A DNA stretch of 30,917 bases from NCBI RefSeq assembly GCF_003439125.1, contig NZ_QSUU01000017.1, positions 1 to 30,917 on the forward strand. Reading direction: 5' to 3'. This DNA comes from Collinsella sp. OM04-5. GTDB taxonomy: Bacteria; Actinomycetota; Coriobacteriia; Coriobacteriales; Coriobacteriaceae. Below are positions 7,046 to 24,205 of the stretch, piece after piece. Under the pieces are notes generated by a model. It did no database searches. It worked only from the letters and a program-made list of their open reading frames with translations, and was not told the origin of the DNA. Positions within the stretch are counted from its first letter, which is position 1; each line of letters starts with the position of its first letter. Both the position numbers and the translations under genes were made by a program.

Positions 7046-7074
7046 GGTCCCCGGGCGATGCCGGGGACCTTTCT
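7046..7074 (+). terminator. Terminator of the acpS-tsaD operon
   Basis: A perfect 9-bp stem, GGTCCCCGG (7046-7054) with CCGGGGACC (7061-7069), and a short T-rich tail end the operon 12 bases after the tsaD stop. The toxin gene converges from the other side. Confidence 0.75.
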
Positions 7075-7171: not shown

Positions 7172-7486
7172 CTACCTGATAATCGACTCAATATCTCGTC
7201 TCTTATATAGCAGTCGGCGGACTTCCATAACGTCGTCGATGACGACATAAAAAACCATGTAGTTGCCAACGCAGAAGCGGTAATACGGGTGCAACCGCCT
7301 TCTTGTCGAAGGGTATGTTGGTGACATGGTTGGATTCTTGAGATGTTCGAGTATGCCTGCTTCAACATTGTCGACAAGCCTATTTGCTGCAGCGGGGTTA
7401 TTGAGATCAAAGGCGATATATGACGCTGCTTGGCTGAGGTCCTCCCAAAATAGGGGAAGATAGCGGAGCTTATAGGGCCTGTTCAT
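7172..7486 (-). CDS. RelE/ParE-family toxin
   Basis: This small basic protein (104 aa) fits the RelE/ParE toxin fold. It starts MNRPYKLRYLPLFWEDL, and the C-terminal half RFCVGNYMVFYVVIDDVMEV then RLLYKRRDIESII has the strand pattern and final Arg-rich strand of ParE-like toxins (compare the family's GNYLIFYVV...RVLYGRRD). ParE members poison gyrase and RelE members cleave mRNA; the sequence alone does not decide between them. An earlier ATG exists but lies deep in the antitoxin gene; the start at 7486 overlaps the antitoxin end by 17 bp, the usual arrangement for such pairs. Convergent with tsaD. Confidence 0.85.
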   Translation of the reverse strand: MNRPYKLRYLPLFWEDLSQAASYIAFDLNNPAAANRLVDNVEAGILEHLKNPTMSPTYPSTRRRLHPYYRFCVGNYMVFYVVIDDVMEVRRLLYKRRDIESIIR

Positions 7487-7745
7487 CGAGACCGCCGTTG
7501 AGCATTTTTCTGACAGAGCCAAAGACATCGTCGTGTGTGTAGCGAAGTTGCATGCTGGCGGCCTGACGATCAGCGGCATCAAGGGCGCTCTCGATTGTAT
7601 TGCTCAGCGACTTGTACTGCTCAAAGCTCATGACGACCATAGAGCCCCGCCCGTTTTTAGTTAGAAAAACCGGACCCTCTTGTTCGACTTCGCGTTCAAC
7701 GTCCGGGTAGTGATTTCTAAGATCTGAGACTGGCCGAATATTCAC
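7470..7745 (-). CDS. Phd/YefM-family antitoxin
   Basis: This 91-aa protein starts VNIRPVSDLRNHYPDVEREV and continues GPVFLTKNGRGSMVVMSFEQY, the typical Phd/YefM DNA-binding half. The C-terminal half, rich in Ala, Asp and Gln, would wrap the toxin. The frame is open further upstream, but AGGAGGT at 7750-7756 (on the minus strand) lies four bases before a GTG at 7745, and the Phd fold begins there. Phd proteins neutralise the toxin and repress their own operon; the dyad at 7771-7788 is the likely operator. Confidence 0.87.
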   Translation of the reverse strand: MNIRPVSDLRNHYPDVEREVEQEGPVFLTKNGRGSMVVMSFEQYKSLSNTIESALDAADRQAASMQLRYTHDDVFGSVRKMLNGGLDEQAL

Positions 7746-7770
7746 GGCTACCTCCTGAGCTATCAGGATA

Positions 7771-7788
7771 TTATCGTAATTATGATAA
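7771..7788 (-). promoter_or_regulatory. Palindromic operator of the toxin-antitoxin operon
   Basis: TTATCGTAATTATGATAA is an 18-bp dyad with 16 of 18 positions symmetric. It lies about 25 bp upstream of the antitoxin GTG and overlaps an A+T-rich promoter-like stretch, where Phd/YefM proteins normally bind. Confidence 0.6.
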
Positions 7789-7811
7789 CAGAGTTTAGAT
7801 TTGGGATGGGA

Positions 7812-7971
7812 GCTCCTCGGGGGCGGGGCGGGCGCCTGCCGCCATATATGAACTTTATCGCGAGTTCCGCACGAACAGGAGGCCACTTAATGTGGCCTCC
7901 GTCGTGAGCAGGACTGTCCGAGCAGGAAAGTTCATATATGGCGGCAGGCGCCCGCCCCGCCCCCGAGGAGC
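7812..7971. repeat. Foldback element, copy 1 (45-bp perfect arms, 70-nt conserved core)
   Basis: Two perfectly complementary 45-nt arms (7812-7856 and 7927-7971) flank a 70-nt core (7857-7926). The core contains its own hairpin, GGAGGCCAC/GTGGCCTCC around TTAAT (7878-7900), and further pairing (CACGA with TCGTG), so nearly the whole 160 nt folds into one stem. The core recurs in reverse orientation at 12648-12716, with only a small indel/substitution, but the arms there are unrelated. It encodes no convincing protein. It fills most of the 424-bp gap between the antitoxin and the cstA leader. Confidence 0.9.
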
Positions 7972-8069
7972 GTCTCTCATGCAAAAACTGTCGTTGGGTA
8001 AAGTCCGAGGTTAGTGGCGTTTTATACCGAGAAATCCAAAAAAAGTTGAAAATTCATTACAAATTTGCG

Positions 8070-8098
8070 TTGACTTTAGGTAACTAAAGTTTCATACT
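8070..8098 (+). promoter_or_regulatory. Strong sigma70 promoter for cstA
   Basis: TTGACT (8070-8075) and CATACT (8093-8098) are 17 bp apart. An A+T-rich run just upstream (8036-8069) resembles an UP element. Confidence 0.75.
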
Positions 8099-8116
8099 CC
8101 TTTTCAACCACTGGGG

Positions 8117-8145
8117 GATGTGAACACGCACGGAACGTTCACATC
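8117..8145 (+). promoter_or_regulatory. Inverted repeat at the start of the cstA leader
   Basis: GATGTGAAC (8117-8125) and GTTCACATC (8137-8145) form a perfect 9-bp dyad with an 11-nt loop. It falls about 12-40 bases after the predicted transcription start, so it could be an operator or a 5' RNA hairpin. Confidence 0.5.
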
Positions 8146-8169
8146 ATGATCGAAGAGGATTTCTTAGAC

Positions 8170-8214
8170 ATGTTCACGCATCAGCTAAACATTATCAGCG
8201 TAGTAATTATCTGA
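8170..8214 (+). CDS. Putative Ile/Val-rich leader peptide of cstA
   Basis: A 14-codon frame reads MFTHQLNIISVVII. An AGAGGA-type ribosome binding site lies about ten bases upstream. Six of the last seven codons are Ile or Val, as in attenuation peptides of ilv operons. A hairpin begins three bases after its stop, and an intrinsic terminator follows before the cstA gene. The peptide is therefore likely a ribosome-stalling sensor rather than a functional protein. The reading is inferred from layout; no homologue is known to me in front of cstA. Confidence 0.5.
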   Translation: MFTHQLNIISVVII

Positions 8215-8216
8215 TG

Positions 8217-8304
8217 CGGGTTAGCACATACAGCTAGCCCGTACGATAACGGGCGGCTGATGAAGATGAGGGCCGTCGAGCGCAACCGACGGCCCTCATT
8301 TTTT
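8217..8304 (+). terminator. Leader hairpins and attenuator terminator before cstA
   Basis: Hairpin A pairs 8217-8225 with 8233-8241 (9 bp, one G-T). An alternative hairpin pairs 8237-8242 with 8249-8254 and shares bases with A, so the two exclude each other. A 13-bp terminator stem follows (8266-8278 with 8287-8299) with five T after it. This lies between the promoter and the gene, so some or most transcripts should end here unless antitermination occurs. How the second hairpin would open the terminator is not clear from pairing alone. Confidence 0.65.
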
Positions 8305-8339
8305 ATGTCTAGGAAGTTCTTTTTAGAGGAGGAAATGTA

Positions 8340-10229
8340 ATGAACGGAGTTTTGCTCATGGTTGTGGCCGCGGCGGTGCTCGCCTGCGGCTATCTGGGCT
8401 ACGGCCGCTGGCTGGCCAACAAGTGGGGCGTTGACAAAGAGGCCCTCACGCCGGCCAAGCGCATGAAGGACGGCAACAGCTTCTCGCCCGTCTCCGCCTT
8501 TACCGCGTTCTCGCACCAGTTCAGCTCGATCTGCGGTGCTGGCCCTGTTACGGGTACGATCGTCGCCATGGCATTCGGCTGGCTTCCCGTCGTGCTCTGG
8601 GTCCTCGTCGGCGGCATCTTCTTTGGCGCCGTCCACGACTTTGGCGCCCTGTACGCCTCGATGAAGAACAACGGCAAGTCCCTGGCTCAGCTCATCGAGA
8701 AGTACATCGGCAAGACCGGCCGTCGCCTGTTCCTGCTGTTCTGCTGGCTGTTCTGCATCATCGTCATCGCCGCCTTCACCGACATGGTCTGCAAGACGTT
8801 CATGTTCACCCCGGCCGTTGACGCTTCTGGTGCTGCTACCGGTGCCATCGACTTCACCAAGTCCTATGCCGCCGGCTGCGCTGGTACCATCTCCATCCTG
8901 TTCACCTTCGTCGCTATCGCCTTTGGTTGGGCCCAGAAGAAGTTCAACCTCACCGGTGCTACCGAGTTCGTCACCGGCGTGGTCCTCATGGTTCTCATGT
9001 TCGCCGTCGGTATGCAGTTCCCGGTCTACCTGGATAAGTTCCAGTGGTTCGCCGTCGTCATGGTCTACCTGGTCTTTGCTGGCGCCATGCCCATCCAGAT
9101 GCTCAAGACCCCTCGCGACTACCTCACTTCCATCATGATGATCGTCATGATCGCCTGCGCTGTCCTCGGTATCGTCGTCCTGGGTGTTAACGGCCAGGCC
9201 ACCATCACCGCTCCGGCCTTTACCGGCTTCTCCAGCGCTTCTGGCATGATGTTCCCGGTCCTGTTTGTTTCCGTTGCCTGCGGTGCCCTCTCCGGCTTTC
9301 ACAGCCTCGTTTCTTCTGGTACCTCCTCCAAGCAGGTCGAGAAGGAGCAGGACGCCGTCAAGGTCGGTTATGGCGCCATGATCGTCGAGTCCTTCGTCGG
9401 CATCCTTGCCATCATCGTCGCCGGCATCATGTTCTCCGATATGAACACCGCCGGCACTGGTGCCCTCAACGCCGGCGTCGCTTCCACCCCGTTCCAGATC
9501 TTCGCCGCTGGTATCTCCCGCGGTATGCAGGCCTTCGGTGTTGACGGCACGCTCGCTACCGTCTTCATGACCATGAACGTCTCCGCTCTGGCCCTGACCT
9601 CGCTCGATGCCGTCGCCCGCATCGCCCGCACCTCGTTCTCCGAGTTCTTTGCCCAGACCAACGACGCCCTGGCCATCGAGTCCAAGGCCGGCTACATGAA
9701 GGTTCTCGGCAACCCCTGGTTCGCCACGGTCGTCACCCTGCTTCCCGGTCTCGCCCTCGCCTTTGGCGGCTATGCCAACATCTGGCCGCTCTTTGGTGCT
9801 TCCAACCAGCTGCTCGGCGGCATGACCATGATCACCCTCGCCGTGTTCTGCAAGTGCACCGGCCGCAAGGGCTGGATGCTCTACGTGCCCGTCGCCTTCC
9901 TGCTCTGCTGCACCTTCACCTCGCTGGTCCAGAGCGCCATGGGCTGCATGACCGCTGTCCAGGCTTACGGCTTCTTCGGCACCATCCCGGCTACCGCCAC
10001 CACGGCCGCCGTCTCCGTCGCCGCCACCAAGGGCCTGCAGCTCGTTTTCGCCGTCCTGCTGATGGTCCTGGGCCTCATCGTTGCCGTCAACTGTCTCAAG
10101 GAGTTCTTCGGCAAGGAGGCCGGCTCCATGCCCGACGAGGAGCCCGAGTGGTCCGAGATGGGCAAGGCCGAGTACGGTCGCACCGCTGCCGCTGAGGCTC
10201 CTGCCGACGCCGAGGCCGCTAAGGCCTAG
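8340..10229 (+). CDS. cstA: CstA-family carbon-starvation / peptide-pyruvate transporter
   Basis: This 629-residue polytopic membrane protein belongs to the CstA family, whose members import peptides or pyruvate during starvation. It begins with a membrane helix (LLMVVAAAVLACGYLGYGRW) and has the family segments FSSICGAGPVTGTIVAM, FGAVHDFGALYASMK and, near the C-terminus, FGASNQLLGGMTM. The C-terminal 40 residues are hydrophilic and Ala/Glu-rich. AGAGGAGG at 8325-8332 fixes the ATG. Codons are strongly C-ending, unlike the flanking genes, which suggests high expression. The leader peptide and terminator upstream suggest control by amino-acid supply. The substrate cannot be told from the sequence. 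Confidence 0.93.
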   Translation: MNGVLLMVVAAAVLACGYLGYGRWLANKWGVDKEALTPAKRMKDGNSFSPVSAFTAFSHQFSSICGAGPVTGTIVAMAFGWLPVVLWVLVGGIFFGAVHDFGALYASMKNNGKSLAQLIEKYIGKTGRRLFLLFCWLFCIIVIAAFTDMVCKTFMFTPAVDASGAATGAIDFTKSYAAGCAGTISILFTFVAIAFGWAQKKFNLTGATEFVTGVVLMVLMFAVGMQFPVYLDKFQWFAVVMVYLVFAGAMPIQMLKTPRDYLTSIMMIVMIACAVLGIVVLGVNGQATITAPAFTGFSSASGMMFPVLFVSVACGALSGFHSLVSSGTSSKQVEKEQDAVKVGYGAMIVESFVGILAIIVAGIMFSDMNTAGTGALNAGVASTPFQIFAAGISRGMQAFGVDGTLATVFMTMNVSALALTSLDAVARIARTSFSEFFAQTNDALAIESKAGYMKVLGNPWFATVVTLLPGLALAFGGYANIWPLFGASNQLLGGMTMITLAVFCKCTGRKGWMLYVPVAFLLCCTFTSLVQSAMGCMTAVQAYGFFGTIPATATTAAVSVAATKGLQLVFAVLLMVLGLIVAVNCLKEFFGKEAGSMPDEEPEWSEMGKAEYGRTAAAEAPADAEAAKA

Positions 10230-10270
10230 TCGGTCGGACGGGTTGAATCTCCCATCTATTTGACTCGGAA

Positions 10271-10308
10271 AGACCGGGTCCGCAATCAAGCGGACCCGGT
10301 CTTTTTTC
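10271..10308 (+). terminator. Terminator of cstA
   Basis: A perfect 12-bp stem AGACCGGGTCCG (10271-10282) with its complement (10291-10302), extendable by flanking A-T pairs, is followed by a T run. Confidence 0.9.
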
Positions 10309-10348
10309 TTGTGATAACAGGTGGTGCAAGGGCGTTCTCGCAGATGTT

Positions 10349-10378
10349 TTGCGTGGATAGGCTCGTGCGTTGTACCAT
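10349..10378 (+). promoter_or_regulatory. Possible promoter of the JetD-like gene
   Basis: TTGCGT (10349-10354) and TACCAT (10373-10378) are 18 bp apart. The downstream leader has three closely spaced ATATG motifs. Confidence 0.35.
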
Positions 10379-10412
10379 ATGGACGTATATGTGTGCATAT
10401 GAAAGGGGCCCC

Positions 10413-12605
10413 GTGGCCAAGACGGTATATTCCGATAATCAAAACAATGTCGATGCTCTGGCTGAGCGTCTGAGCAGCCAGACGTCGCTTTCTGCCGAGC
10501 GCGCCAAGCTGGTTGCCTACGACCTGCTCTGCCGCAAGGCGCTCAAGATTAAGTCGAGCGCGCTGGCGCAGATTTTCCGCTCCGTCGATAAGGAATGCGA
10601 TACCAAGGCGATGCGCGATGAGCTTATCGCGGCAAATATCGTGACCAAGATCGAGGGCAGCGGCATTAACGGGCGCCCGGCGTTCTATACCATCAATGTC
10701 GAGATCCGCGATGCCCAGGAGCAGCCTGCCGAGTCCGTCGAAGATTTTGTCGTCGAGGATTCCGCTGACGTGCCTGCTGTGGAAGAAGTTGCTCCGCGTG
10801 AGCATGTTGATACCGATGAGTTGCTCGATGAGAACGTCGTGCGTGCCTTTACGGCCAAGGCAGGGCGCGGCGGTTTTGGCGGGGGTGGCAAGCGCGATGC
10901 GCAGCGTCGCGCCCAGCAGGAGCGCTTCCGTCGCGCCGTTGCTCGAAAGGGTGAGACGGATGCCGAGGCTGTTGAGAACGAGGTTGCTGCCGATTCGCAG
11001 AGGCCCGCGAAGGAGCAAAAGCCCGTGGAGGCCCAGGAGCCCCAGCGTCGCCGTGGTGCCCACTTTAAGGCTGCGCAGCAGGATGTCGCGCATGAGGTTG
11101 AAGAGCCTTCCGAGGCTGCAGACGATGTTGAGGAGTCTGCCAAGAAGGCTCCGGGTTCATGCCGTCCCGGGCGTGGTTTTGCGAGGCGCGCGTATCCCGT
11201 AAGGCGTCAGGAGAAGGGCGAGCCGGCTTCGACCGCTCAGGCCGAGAAGGCCGAACAAACCGAGAAAACCGTTGAGCCGGCGGCTCGCGAGCAGCAACCT
11301 TCCGAGTCGCAGCCTGCGGCTGACACTGAGGTCAAAGCTCAACAGACCGCTGATAAGCAGGCTGGGGAGAGCGCCTCAGGCAAGCCCCGCCGTCGTCGTC
11401 ACCGCGGCGGTCGTGGCTCAAATGCCGAGGCCGCGGCCGAGAAGACAGCGACACAAAACGGAGATGAGAAGGCCGAGACTCCGGTGGATCAGGTCAAGCG
11501 CCAGCCGGCGAAGGAGGCCAAGTCCGATCGTCCGCAAAAGCGCTCGTCTGCGCCCAAGCAGGAACGTAATACCCGGGCAGATTCCAAGCGTAAGCCTCAT
11601 GCACAGGCTGAGCCTGCCGCGGCTGATAGTGCTACCCAGCAGCCCGAGTCGGCCGTCCACGGCGAGGTATCGGCGTTTGCCCTTGCCCGCGTTTTGGGCA
11701 GGCAGCTGCTCAAAGTTGTCCCTACGCCTACGGCGCTCTCTAAGATCAAGGAGCAGCAGACTCAAATTGTTAAGGTCGAGGGCAAGGACGGCAAAAAGGC
11801 GCCGCAGCGCACTCAGCACAACGAGATGTCCAACCGCAAGATTGCCGAGGAAATCGCAATCATCCAGGCTTGGATCGAGCAAAACCGAGGTGCCGATACG
11901 CCGGTTGCCTCGCGCCGCCAGCGTGCCTACCAGATTTTTAACGATGAGAAGGCCTTTGACGGCAAGCACGGCGAGCGCCTAATTCGGCGTATGACCGAAA
12001 AGGGCATCAGCATGCAGGCGATTAAGGTCGCCCCCAACCGCCCCGTTCACTTTACGGGTTTCTTTACGCTGGGCGCCGATAAGCCGTTCATTATGGTCGA
12101 GAACCTGGACACCTACGACGAGATCGTCAGGCTGCTGCGTGGCCGCAAGCACGCCAAGCTCTTTGGCATCAAGGTGGGCGGCGTGATTTTTGGCGGCGGA
12201 TGCAAGGCGAGCGTCTCGCATGCCCTGGACGATTATCTGGCTGAGATCGGCTATCGCTTTAACTACGTCTACTACGTGGGCGATATCGACCGCGAGGGCG
12301 CGCGCATCGTCGAGCAGGCTCGCAATGCCAATGTGGTTGAGATTCGCCTGCATGCCGGCATGTACCGCGCCATGCTCGCCGAGCATAAGCGTCGCGTGAA
12401 GGCCGGCGGCGAGTGCGAGCCCGCGGCTGCCAACCAGGGCGTGCCGCAGAACTTGGCGGCGACGATCAAGGATCTGCCCATGGTCACGCGCGTGCAGTTC
12501 CGCAATGTGCTGCGCGAGGGCGGGCGCATTCCGCAGGAGATTCTGATGACCGCCGACTATCGGGATGGCGACTCGGGAAGCTTCGACCGCATGCTTAACA
12601 ACTAA
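10413..12605 (+). CDS. TOPRIM protein with JetD/DUF2220-like C-terminus and long disordered middle
   Basis: The protein (730 aa from the GTG at 10413, preceded by GAAAGGGG) has three parts. Residues 1-100 are a compact, helical, probably winged-helix domain ending in GRPAFYTIN. Residues about 110-450 are low-complexity, rich in Ala, Glu, Lys and Gln, with a basic patch RRRRHRGGRG. Residues about 470-730 form a folded domain with FIMVENLD (about 559) and YYVGDIDREGARIV (G623, D624, D626, E628 region). That pair of motifs matches the TOPRIM-like C-terminal domain of JetD, the nuclease subunit of Wadjet plasmid-defence systems, whose family signature is VEN...GDIDxxG. No JetA, JetB or JetC gene is nearby, so it is a stand-alone relative. 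An in-frame ATG at 10389 is an alternative start; the frame upstream of that runs back into a terminator. Function unknown; a DNA-processing role is inferred. Confidence 0.7.
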   Translation: MAKTVYSDNQNNVDALAERLSSQTSLSAERAKLVAYDLLCRKALKIKSSALAQIFRSVDKECDTKAMRDELIAANIVTKIEGSGINGRPAFYTINVEIRDAQEQPAESVEDFVVEDSADVPAVEEVAPREHVDTDELLDENVVRAFTAKAGRGGFGGGGKRDAQRRAQQERFRRAVARKGETDAEAVENEVAADSQRPAKEQKPVEAQEPQRRRGAHFKAAQQDVAHEVEEPSEAADDVEESAKKAPGSCRPGRGFARRAYPVRRQEKGEPASTAQAEKAEQTEKTVEPAAREQQPSESQPAADTEVKAQQTADKQAGESASGKPRRRRHRGGRGSNAEAAAEKTATQNGDEKAETPVDQVKRQPAKEAKSDRPQKRSSAPKQERNTRADSKRKPHAQAEPAAADSATQQPESAVHGEVSAFALARVLGRQLLKVVPTPTALSKIKEQQTQIVKVEGKDGKKAPQRTQHNEMSNRKIAEEIAIIQAWIEQNRGADTPVASRRQRAYQIFNDEKAFDGKHGERLIRRMTEKGISMQAIKVAPNRPVHFTGFFTLGADKPFIMVENLDTYDEIVRLLRGRKHAKLFGIKVGGVIFGGGCKASVSHALDDYLAEIGYRFNYVYYVGDIDREGARIVEQARNANVVEIRLHAGMYRAMLAEHKRRVKAGGECEPAAANQGVPQNLAATIKDLPMVTRVQFRNVLREGGRIPQEILMTADYRDGDSGSFDRMLNN

Positions 12606-12613
12606 ATTCCGCC

Positions 12614-12750
12614 GGCCCCGGGAGAGCGGGGACACCGGCTTAGGTTTCCTGCTCTACAGTCCTGCTCACGACGGAGGCCACATTAAGTGGCCTCCTGTTC
12701 GTGCGGAACTCGCGATAAACCTAAGCCGGTGTCCCCGCTCTCCCGGGGCC
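12614..12750. repeat. Foldback element, copy 2 (34-bp perfect arms, 69-nt conserved core)
   Basis: Perfectly complementary 34-nt arms (12614-12647 and 12717-12750) flank a 69-nt core (12648-12716). The core is the reverse complement of that in copy 1 with only a small difference; the apical hairpin is 12673-12695. The arms share only the innermost TTT/AAA with copy 1. It starts nine bases after the stop of the JetD-like gene and could also serve as its terminator. Confidence 0.9.
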
Positions 12751-12815: not shown

Positions 12816-12853
12816 TCTACCACCGTCGCTGTGCAGGGTGTCTATAAAGAGCC

Positions 12854-13083
12854 GTGGCCAAAAAACATCAAATATGAGTACTGATACTCTTTTAGTAGCA
12901 GTAATTTTGATCACATTTAAGGTGATTTGACGTGTCGATCGAGCAGATAAGCTGCCGTATCTCCTCAAGTGTTCATTAAAGGAAGACCTTGATGCGAATA
13001 AATCTCATTAAGATCTTCTTTTATTAACGAAAATAATGTAGCTACAACGGTAACAGTACTCATATTTGCCGTTTTTTGGCCAC
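12854..13083. mobile_element. MITE-like element with 30-bp terminal inverted repeats
   Basis: The ends GTGGCCAAAAAAC...GAGTACTG (12854-12883) and the matching complement (13054-13083) agree at 28 of 30 positions. About 170 bp of A+T-rich DNA lies between, unlike the G+C-rich flanks. Similarity of the two halves continues weakly inward, so it may be an old inverted duplication. No transposase is encoded. Short frames starting from either end (with GQKT and NMST in common) are probably by-products of the repeat. Confidence 0.6.
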
Positions 13084-13116
13084 AGTCCTTCGGAGGGTCC
13101 TCGAAAATAGTCCCGA

Positions 13117-23962: not shown

Positions 23963-23991
23963 GTGTTGGGACTGTCTGACCGGTCGTTTGT

Positions 23992-24205
23992 CTCGATCTG
24001 TAACGGATAGGGCCGATTTCGGACGTTAGATGTTACAGATCGAGGCGGTTCCGCTGAGCTAACCATTTCATCTAAATCTGTAACACCAAAGGCGAATTTC
24101 ACCTGCTAGATGTTACAGATTGAGATAAACCCAAGGGGAGGGGCCGGTATGTCTCAATCTGTAACAGCTGGGACCGTTTTGGTTGAGTAGTTGTTATGGA
24201 TCGAG
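23992..24205. repeat. Array of six 13-nt alternately inverted repeats at 40-bp spacing
   Basis: The unit CTCGATCTGTAAC or a close variant starts at 23992, 24072 and 24153. Its reverse complement GTTACAGATCGAG or a variant starts at 24032, 24112 and 24193. Start-to-start steps are 40, 40, 40, 41 and 40. The 27-28-nt spacers differ in sequence. Each + then - pair can form a hairpin, and at least two of the enclosed spacers hold a small inner stem. No frame, T run or cas gene is associated. With the two flanking terminators the array fills the 455-bp gap between malK and glgP. Confidence 0.9.

Follow-up and report, generated by a model that had tools for sequence, protein, structure and literature searches.

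How can two copies of one repeat hold nearly the same core and yet carry arms that match their own partner perfectly and the other copy hardly at all? This question is raised by a stretch of 30,917 nucleotides from Collinsella sp. OM04-5 (contig NZ_QSUU01000017.1, positions 1 to 30,917; here called the window), which contains two such foldback elements. We find that they belong to a foldback repeat that is very common in gut Coriobacteriia and prefers gene ends. Its palindrome arms differ between copies yet match their own partner, one arm probably being used to recopy the other.

Two foldback elements in the window

The original prediction, made from the window alone, described two elements with a conserved core in opposite orientation and perfect arms, and an inverted-repeat scan (repeats of at least 16 nt, with at most 300 nt between arms) confirmed that both are real: among the 20 inverted repeats listed for the window, these were the only pairs with 100% complementarity. 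Element 1 lies on the forward strand and is made of a 45-bp left arm (7812–7856), a 70-nt core (7857–7926) and a 45-nt right arm (7927–7971); its core contains AGTTCCGC (7863–7870), an apical hairpin (7878–7900) and AGGACTG (7910–7916). Element 2 lies on the reverse strand and has, in core orientation, a 34-nt left arm (12717–12750), a 69-nt core (12648–12716) and a perfect 34-bp right arm (12614–12647). The sole difference between the two cores is the segment TGTCCGAG/TGTAGAG. A covariance model built from relatives scored 108.3 bits for element 1 (forward) and 107.5 bits for element 2 (reverse); the remaining three matches listed for the window were mirror-strand reads of the same two hairpins (39.7 and 35.4 bits) and one match of 13 bits. 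The predicted fold energies are −144.0 and −120.4 kcal/mol, respectively. We dismiss a chance origin of a perfect 45-bp inverted repeat in 160 nt, by judgement rather than by shuffling.

Distribution of the repeat family

In BLAST searches with the 70-nt core, 36 of 43 Collinsella genomes gave matches, and 23 of the 43 gave at least 19–23 each; a genome of the Collinsella group has around twenty copies or more. The complete genome G003 (genomes, loci and sites are labelled G, L and e) carries the exact motif GAGTTCCGCNCG at 28 places, two of which (L034 and L039) are not elements, while a third (L047) is half replaced. With the covariance model, 128 of the 247 genomes sampled across the order had matches, and these represent 37 of 99 genera. 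A phylum-wide covariance search matched 17 of 296 genomes, two of them outside the order (G267 and G369), whose copies have, as judged by eye, the same core.

Among the matches listed in a pattern scan of named genomes were Collinsella, Enorma, Gordonibacter, Adlercreutzia, Slackia, Paraeggerthella, Ellagibacter, Tractidigestivibacter and others. In genera other than Collinsella the core often reads GAGTTCCGCAG, then a freely varying hairpin, then CGAGGACTG. This pattern matched 22 of 396 genomes and its reversed control matched once each in 11; single matches outside the order (G253, G276, G378 and G398) are therefore not taken as evidence. A Collinsella-like copy with perfect 31-bp arms in G197, which belongs to another family, suggests occasional transfer between families.

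A phage or plasmid origin was rejected: viral contigs gave no exact pattern match, phages gave no match to the element, and the only match among plasmid records was an 899,693-base Collinsella record with 12 places, which is exactly as long as contig 6 of G008. The view that no known family has this design held up in our searches. At gathering score, Rfam 15 recognised only a tRNA in the window and did not match the element; permissive Rfam searches returned microRNA families, all under their own gathering scores. We found no description of the repeat in the literature searched, where subscription journals are thinly covered, including a query with the literal sequence, for which the titles among the matches listed looked unrelated.

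A strand-specific core and copy-specific arms

An alignment of 34 copies predicted 32 base pairs, 18 of which show changes on both sides. This structure is paired in 95.9% of cells, compared with 78.2% in shuffles and 34–47% in slid versions, and its covariation score is 0.509 (0.176 shuffled, at most 0.125 slid); covariation backing a fold, as looked for in structured noncoding RNAs, is present. The mismatches in the stem indicate which strand folds. With each of the 103 sites represented by a single element (174 of the 189 distinct elements had enough flank), the inner 8 bp contained 55 G.U, 2 A.C and 14 other mismatches (G.U versus A.C, binomial p = 2e-14). Since these are nearly all G.U on the core strand, it is the AGTTCC strand that folds into the core and its inner stem. 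The outer arms, with 27 G.U, 21 A.C and 14 other mismatches (p = 0.47), have no significant strand preference. An earlier, smaller count over the first 55 arm pairs, mostly from Collinsella, gave 16 G.U, 12 A.C and 9 other overall. The inner part acts as a structured strand, which may be RNA, as in the suggestion of a structured RNA with a variable stem, or single-stranded DNA.

Arms of at least 15 bp are present in 179 of the 189 distinct elements; 79 of these 179 are perfect, and the mismatch fraction is 0.037. Across 96 sites, an outer arm is complementary to its own partner in 97.0% of positions and to the partner from another site in 39.4%. The innermost 9–11 nt of the arms, compared over 34 copies that have the same core type, follow a loose pattern (about NATAARGTTT) leading into a G-rich block. 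The arms therefore differ from random sequence; their outer part varies from copy to copy. The original prediction had called the arms unrelated beyond an innermost TTT/AAA, which stands for the outer part and falls short for the inner one, and it had raised the question whether every copy has perfect, copy-specific arms. Copy-specific complementary arms are indeed found throughout the genus and the order, but fewer than half of them are perfect.

No inner arm of at least 18 nt was common to two sites among 197 elements, except in an inversion hybrid (L100, with L092 and L109). Other sites as donors of arms were rejected on this basis, within these 197 elements rather than whole genomes. The outer 5' arm has a skewed composition, G 63% (60–66) and T 59% (53–65). 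The accessible part of the work of Monttinen and Loytynoja (PMC8794818) derives such base asymmetry of arms from intrastrand template switching, and the G/T excess goes in the direction proposed there; selection on composition would also explain it.

Evolution of the arms at fixed sites

Some 20 relatives of the window carry, at orthologous sites, different arm alleles between similar flanks. By eye, several alleles of one site have their outermost and innermost arm segments in common, while the middle differs symmetrically and can still be aligned. Compensated substitutions are seen (GAGAGC/GCTCTC in one allele, GAGAGT/ACTCTC in another), as is a compensated indel, an extra C/G in both arms of L077 relative to L067 and L069. 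Where flanks are 93–97% identical, outer-arm identity is below 0.7 in 11 of 26 pairs with a median core identity of 1.00; the other flank-identity bins gave 2 of 8, 29 of 66, 29 of 61 and 13 of 23 pairs. The arms at one site often differ more than its flanks or core.

Close allele pairs, defined by at most five differing positions, allowed the changes in the outer arms to be classified. After deduplication there were 28 compensated changes (15 transitions and 13 transversions) and 41 one-sided changes (13 G.U, 12 A.C and 16 other), with 3 positions mismatched in both alleles. The transversion/transition ratio in the flanks of these pairs, 0.61–0.63, predicts about 16 'other' among the 41. Compensation ignores mutation type and extends to symmetric blocks and indels, which argues for copying between arms rather than for selection through G.U intermediates. 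Some elements are hybrids, with a left arm from one allele and a right arm from a second; L003 and L093 represent the two directions of such exchange, and further hybrid states occur in L245, L100 and L037.

Gain and loss of elements

Site e62 shows the element both present and absent. Elements with 31-bp arms are found there in L139, L191 (one mismatch) and L229; the core and both arms are missing in L045, L222 and L258, where the flanks are 83–93% identical to the query and the junction has diverged. A separate terminator-like hairpin stands in filled and empty states alike, and the empty insertion point has no palindrome. In G267, four of the six copies have common arms, which suggests that there the arms were part of the spreading unit and diverged afterwards. 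The original prediction named shared or non-complementary arms as the marks of an ordinary repeat; arms here match their own partner, and sharing is seen in these four G267 copies.

Other states retain arm sequence without a core. Among the matches listed for G025, e31 is spanned in one piece, and wider gaps are seen at e32, e41 and e43; at e31 this genome has retained 20 bp of a single outer arm. In the window, a coreless palindrome GGTCCCCGG-loop-CCGGGGACC at 7046–7069 (reading GGTCCCCGGGCGATGCCGGGGACC, with TTTCTG directly after) lies behind a tsaD-domain open reading frame (ORF), where relatives carry a full element. It is probably the remnant of an internal deletion, and may serve as a terminator of the tsaD-domain ORF. 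G001 likewise keeps a coreless remnant at site 1. We read the states of G025 at e31 and of the window at 7046–7069 as internal deletions, the direction of change being inferred. On the question whether one arm pre-exists in strains lacking the element, the results are mixed, with neither arm at e62 and arm sequence at these two places, which point the other way.

When the 21 sites of G003 were sought in three genomes, most looked occupied among the matches listed (distances taken by hand), and e37 had no match among them; element turnover seems slow. At e32, G019 and G003 differ in arms and core type, and the right flank is identical over 95 bp; in G025 a transposase gene, IS256-like by eye, sits inside the hairpin of this site. 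Two insertion sequences at or beside these hairpins, IS30-like and IS256-like by eye, were seen at L303 and L304 of G025. In L062, L071 and L072, half of the element that corresponds to window element 2 has given way to another repeat, which has a hairpin tip and a CCGCCGTTCTACCGAACGGCGG end. Between the elements at sites e37 and e38, L050 holds the apical hairpin (GAAGGCCACTTAATGTGGCCTTC) by itself.

Position relative to genes

Gene context was taken from a crude hexamer gene finder. Of 103 sites, 26 overlap a called ORF, many of them outside Collinsella, and could be in-gene copies or miscalls; 4 more lie at edges, leaving 73 clean intergenic sites. At 33 of these, the stop codon of an antisense gene lies at most 35 nt to the right of the element (median 17 nt), whereas the stop codon of a sense gene lies on the left at 5 (33 versus 5, p = 4e-6). 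Among 13 distinct close pairs of elements, 10 are in '-+' orientation, none in '+-' and 3 in the same orientation. An excess of '-+' pairs would be expected if two convergent genes each carried one element.

Element 2 obeys the gene-end rule: it is antisense to a 781-aa ORF (10260–12605, forward strand) and lies 8 nt past its stop codon (12603–12605). This ORF has no Pfam or NCBIfam match. Element 1 does not obey the rule, being flanked by Phd/ParE-type ORFs on one side and cstA on the other.

We rejected the view that the outer arms serve mainly as a terminator or mRNA 3'-end hairpin. A T-run follows the hairpin at few of the 33 antisense sites (by eye), the wobble type is independent of gene strand, and e62 has a separate hairpin. 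For elements that lie between two antisense genes (31 sites), mismatches of the outer arms in core orientation are 12 G.U and 7 A.C. Single sites such as tsaD may still function as terminators.

Several further features, most of them in the window, lie near the elements or apart from them. The stretch 7172–7886 (reverse strand) encodes ParE and Phd/YefM type toxin-antitoxin ORFs between two element sites; the same DNA is found in L107 (G022) and is missing from many relatives. A 61-nt inverted repeat, 77% complementary and with 122 nt between its arms, adjoins element 2 and a tRNA-Gln (12847–13090). At 23986–24169 a GTTACAGATTGAGA-type motif occurs in several copies in both orientations within one stretch, and these could be operators. 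A second dispersed repeat, built around ACCAAAATAAACCTGTCC...TTTTTGGCAGGT, has dozens of matches across G025, G002 and G019.

A proposed mechanism and its alternatives

On balance we lean towards a non-autonomous foldback repeat, mostly vertically inherited, whose core is structured on one specific strand and whose outer arms are maintained by template switching. The AGTTCCGC...AGGACTG strand folds into a conserved internal-loop core with a covarying hairpin cap, closed by an inner stem of about 8 bp. Folded core and inner stem would be the part under selection, presumably recognised by a trans-acting protein; the structure and its strand are seen in the alignments, and the recognition is our supposition. 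The outer 10–40 bp of the arm would be held complementary at the DNA level: the hairpin would let a replicating polymerase switch arms, so that a substitution, indel or block change is copied into the partner, as the pattern of changes implies. Because arm changes would be copied in this way, the arms of each site could diverge fast from those of other sites and yet stay paired. Recombination through near-identical cores would then leave hybrid, unpaired arms, and internal deletion would leave coreless remnants, both of which match the states seen.

Several observations weigh against this explanation. We found no mobilising protein: among 8 ORFs scanned with Pfam, taken from the four contigs that hold the six G267 copies, no transposase was seen, with no genome-wide search made. 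No template-switch event was caught directly in the allele comparisons. Arm pairing is often imperfect, since at least one indel bulge appears at 54 of the 103 sites when gaps are allowed, and some inner G.U pairs stand at fixed subfamily positions and so are not independent events. In the flank-identity bins other than 93–97%, only part of the pairs have low arm identity, so many alleles differ little; recombination between strains could moreover import alleles and mimic fast arm change. The outer 'other' mismatches, 14 of 62, are below the neutral-flank expectation (29.8, or about 24 with a cleaner flank ratio), and strand-blind selection on pairing, for a cruciform in the DNA or for bidirectional termination, may also be acting. 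That most sites look retained across strains, among the matches listed, suggests that the arms are useful.

A possible explanation, to which we give limited credence, is that the element acts as a noncoding RNA, or as a hairpin at the 3' end of an mRNA, and that ordinary selection for base pairing preserves its long basal stem through compensatory point mutations. The conserved core with its covarying apical hairpin, the one-strand G.U excess of the inner stem, the 28 compensated changes in close alleles, the shortage of transversion-type mismatches in the outer arms relative to the flanks and the location behind stop codons would all be natural for such an RNA. It accounts poorly for outer arms with no significant G.U excess on either strand, for compensated transversions nearly as common as transitions, for blocks that differ symmetrically between strains and for the lack of an Rfam match at threshold; at the sites between two antisense genes, the excess of G.U over A.C is the opposite of what an mRNA hairpin predicts. 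Another idea, which we regard as unlikely, is that of a single-stranded DNA element in which the strand opposite the upstream gene folds and the core is recognised by a putative recombinase that inserts it behind stop codons, in the manner of an attC site turned inside out, the outer arms being a self-templating, neutral, hypervariable palindrome. If this were true, the outer arms would be a natural record of template switching.

The arm alleles of one site might instead be different elements, brought by a structure-specific transposition that repeatedly re-targets the same places. The two arm and core types beside an identical right flank at e32, the empty site e62 and the G197 copy are in line with such repeated insertion. 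We find it quite unlikely, as alleles of a site share their outermost and innermost segments and are alignable between (by eye), no inner arm of at least 18 nt is common to sites apart from the L100 hybrid, target-site duplications show no clear excess, and, among the matches listed, three other genomes seem to have an element at most of the 21 G003 sites. That the core entered the loop of a palindrome already present, an option raised in the original prediction, appears highly improbable to us; the palindrome might have been a terminator, with its stem becoming the outer arm. This option could draw on the tsaD site, where the window has a coreless palindrome followed by TTTCTG and relatives have full elements with a similar outer stem, and on the arm segment left at e31 in G025. 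At e62, however, the empty insertion point holds no such palindrome and the terminator-like hairpin is separate in both states; the arms travel with the core in four of the six G267 copies; and at several sites most of the arm differs between alleles, alignable and changing in step. The other route then proposed, inverted copying, fits the data as a process, but copying of flanking DNA at insertion is less supported, given that e62 is empty of either arm and that G267 has shared arms.

The family offers hundreds of natural replicates of palindrome arms evolving in step. Mutational repair and selection on hairpins become directly comparable, the inner and outer stem already differing in mismatch signature.

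Comparison with known systems

The Collinsella repeat resembles REPINs (pairs of repetitive extragenic palindromes, REPs) and miniature inverted-repeat transposable elements (MITEs) in life style, and fails the defining tests tried. Like REPs and REPINs with their associated tyrosine transposase (RAYT, TnpA-REP), it is short, high-copy, extragenic and hairpin-forming, and its close pairs have one relative orientation. REPs are described in the accessible part of PMC3733652 as 20–40 bp palindromes; unlike theirs, the stem sequence here is copy-specific. A GTAG/CGTC tag within 12 nt was found at 11 of 103 sites on the left (7 of 103 in the control) and at 13 on the right (9 in the control), a small excess with no common tag. 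Y1 genes occur in 36 of 42 genomes and do not track element number (G018 has no Y1 gene and 17 core matches). In G003, the one genome compared, the Y1 genes at 881179 and 760130 are no closer than 28 kb to an exact-motif element, and two Y1 loci (L339 and L340) have no element core. A link to RAYT was thus rejected, there being no clear tag and none of the Y1 genes examined having an element next to it.

The MITE-like bcr1 of Bacillus cereus (PMC3446304) and the enterobacterial RU (PMC2759123), as far as the excerpts of these papers go, are alike in being non-coding, interspersed foldbacks of about 100–170 bp. Terminal inverted repeats, a MITE trait, are present here; unlike in such repeats, arms are not common to copies in the closely studied lineages, and there is no clear target-site duplication. 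Over 103 sites, duplications of 3 bp were seen 3 times (1.9 shuffled), of 4 bp once (0.4) and of 5–6 bp never, arm ends being uncertain by a few bases.

Collinsella-1 RNA (RF01700), listed in the accessible part of PMC2864571, comes from the same genus. It gave one over-threshold match in five genomes searched (G025:C1:3652–3848), and was rejected as the identity of the repeat, since none of its six fetched loci holds the core. Integron attC sites lie behind stop codons, are folded and active as the antisense strand, and have their conserved boxes at the outer ends. The repeat would be like them in its stop-codon position and antisense strand, and would differ in that its conserved part is central. 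Quasipalindrome correction, or template-switch mutation, is stated in the available parts of PMC8794818 and PMC7202029 to predict perfect stems, multi-base compensated changes and a G-C/U-A excess. Template switching is known as a way in which mutations arise; here it would give an entire family of dispersed repeats its form.

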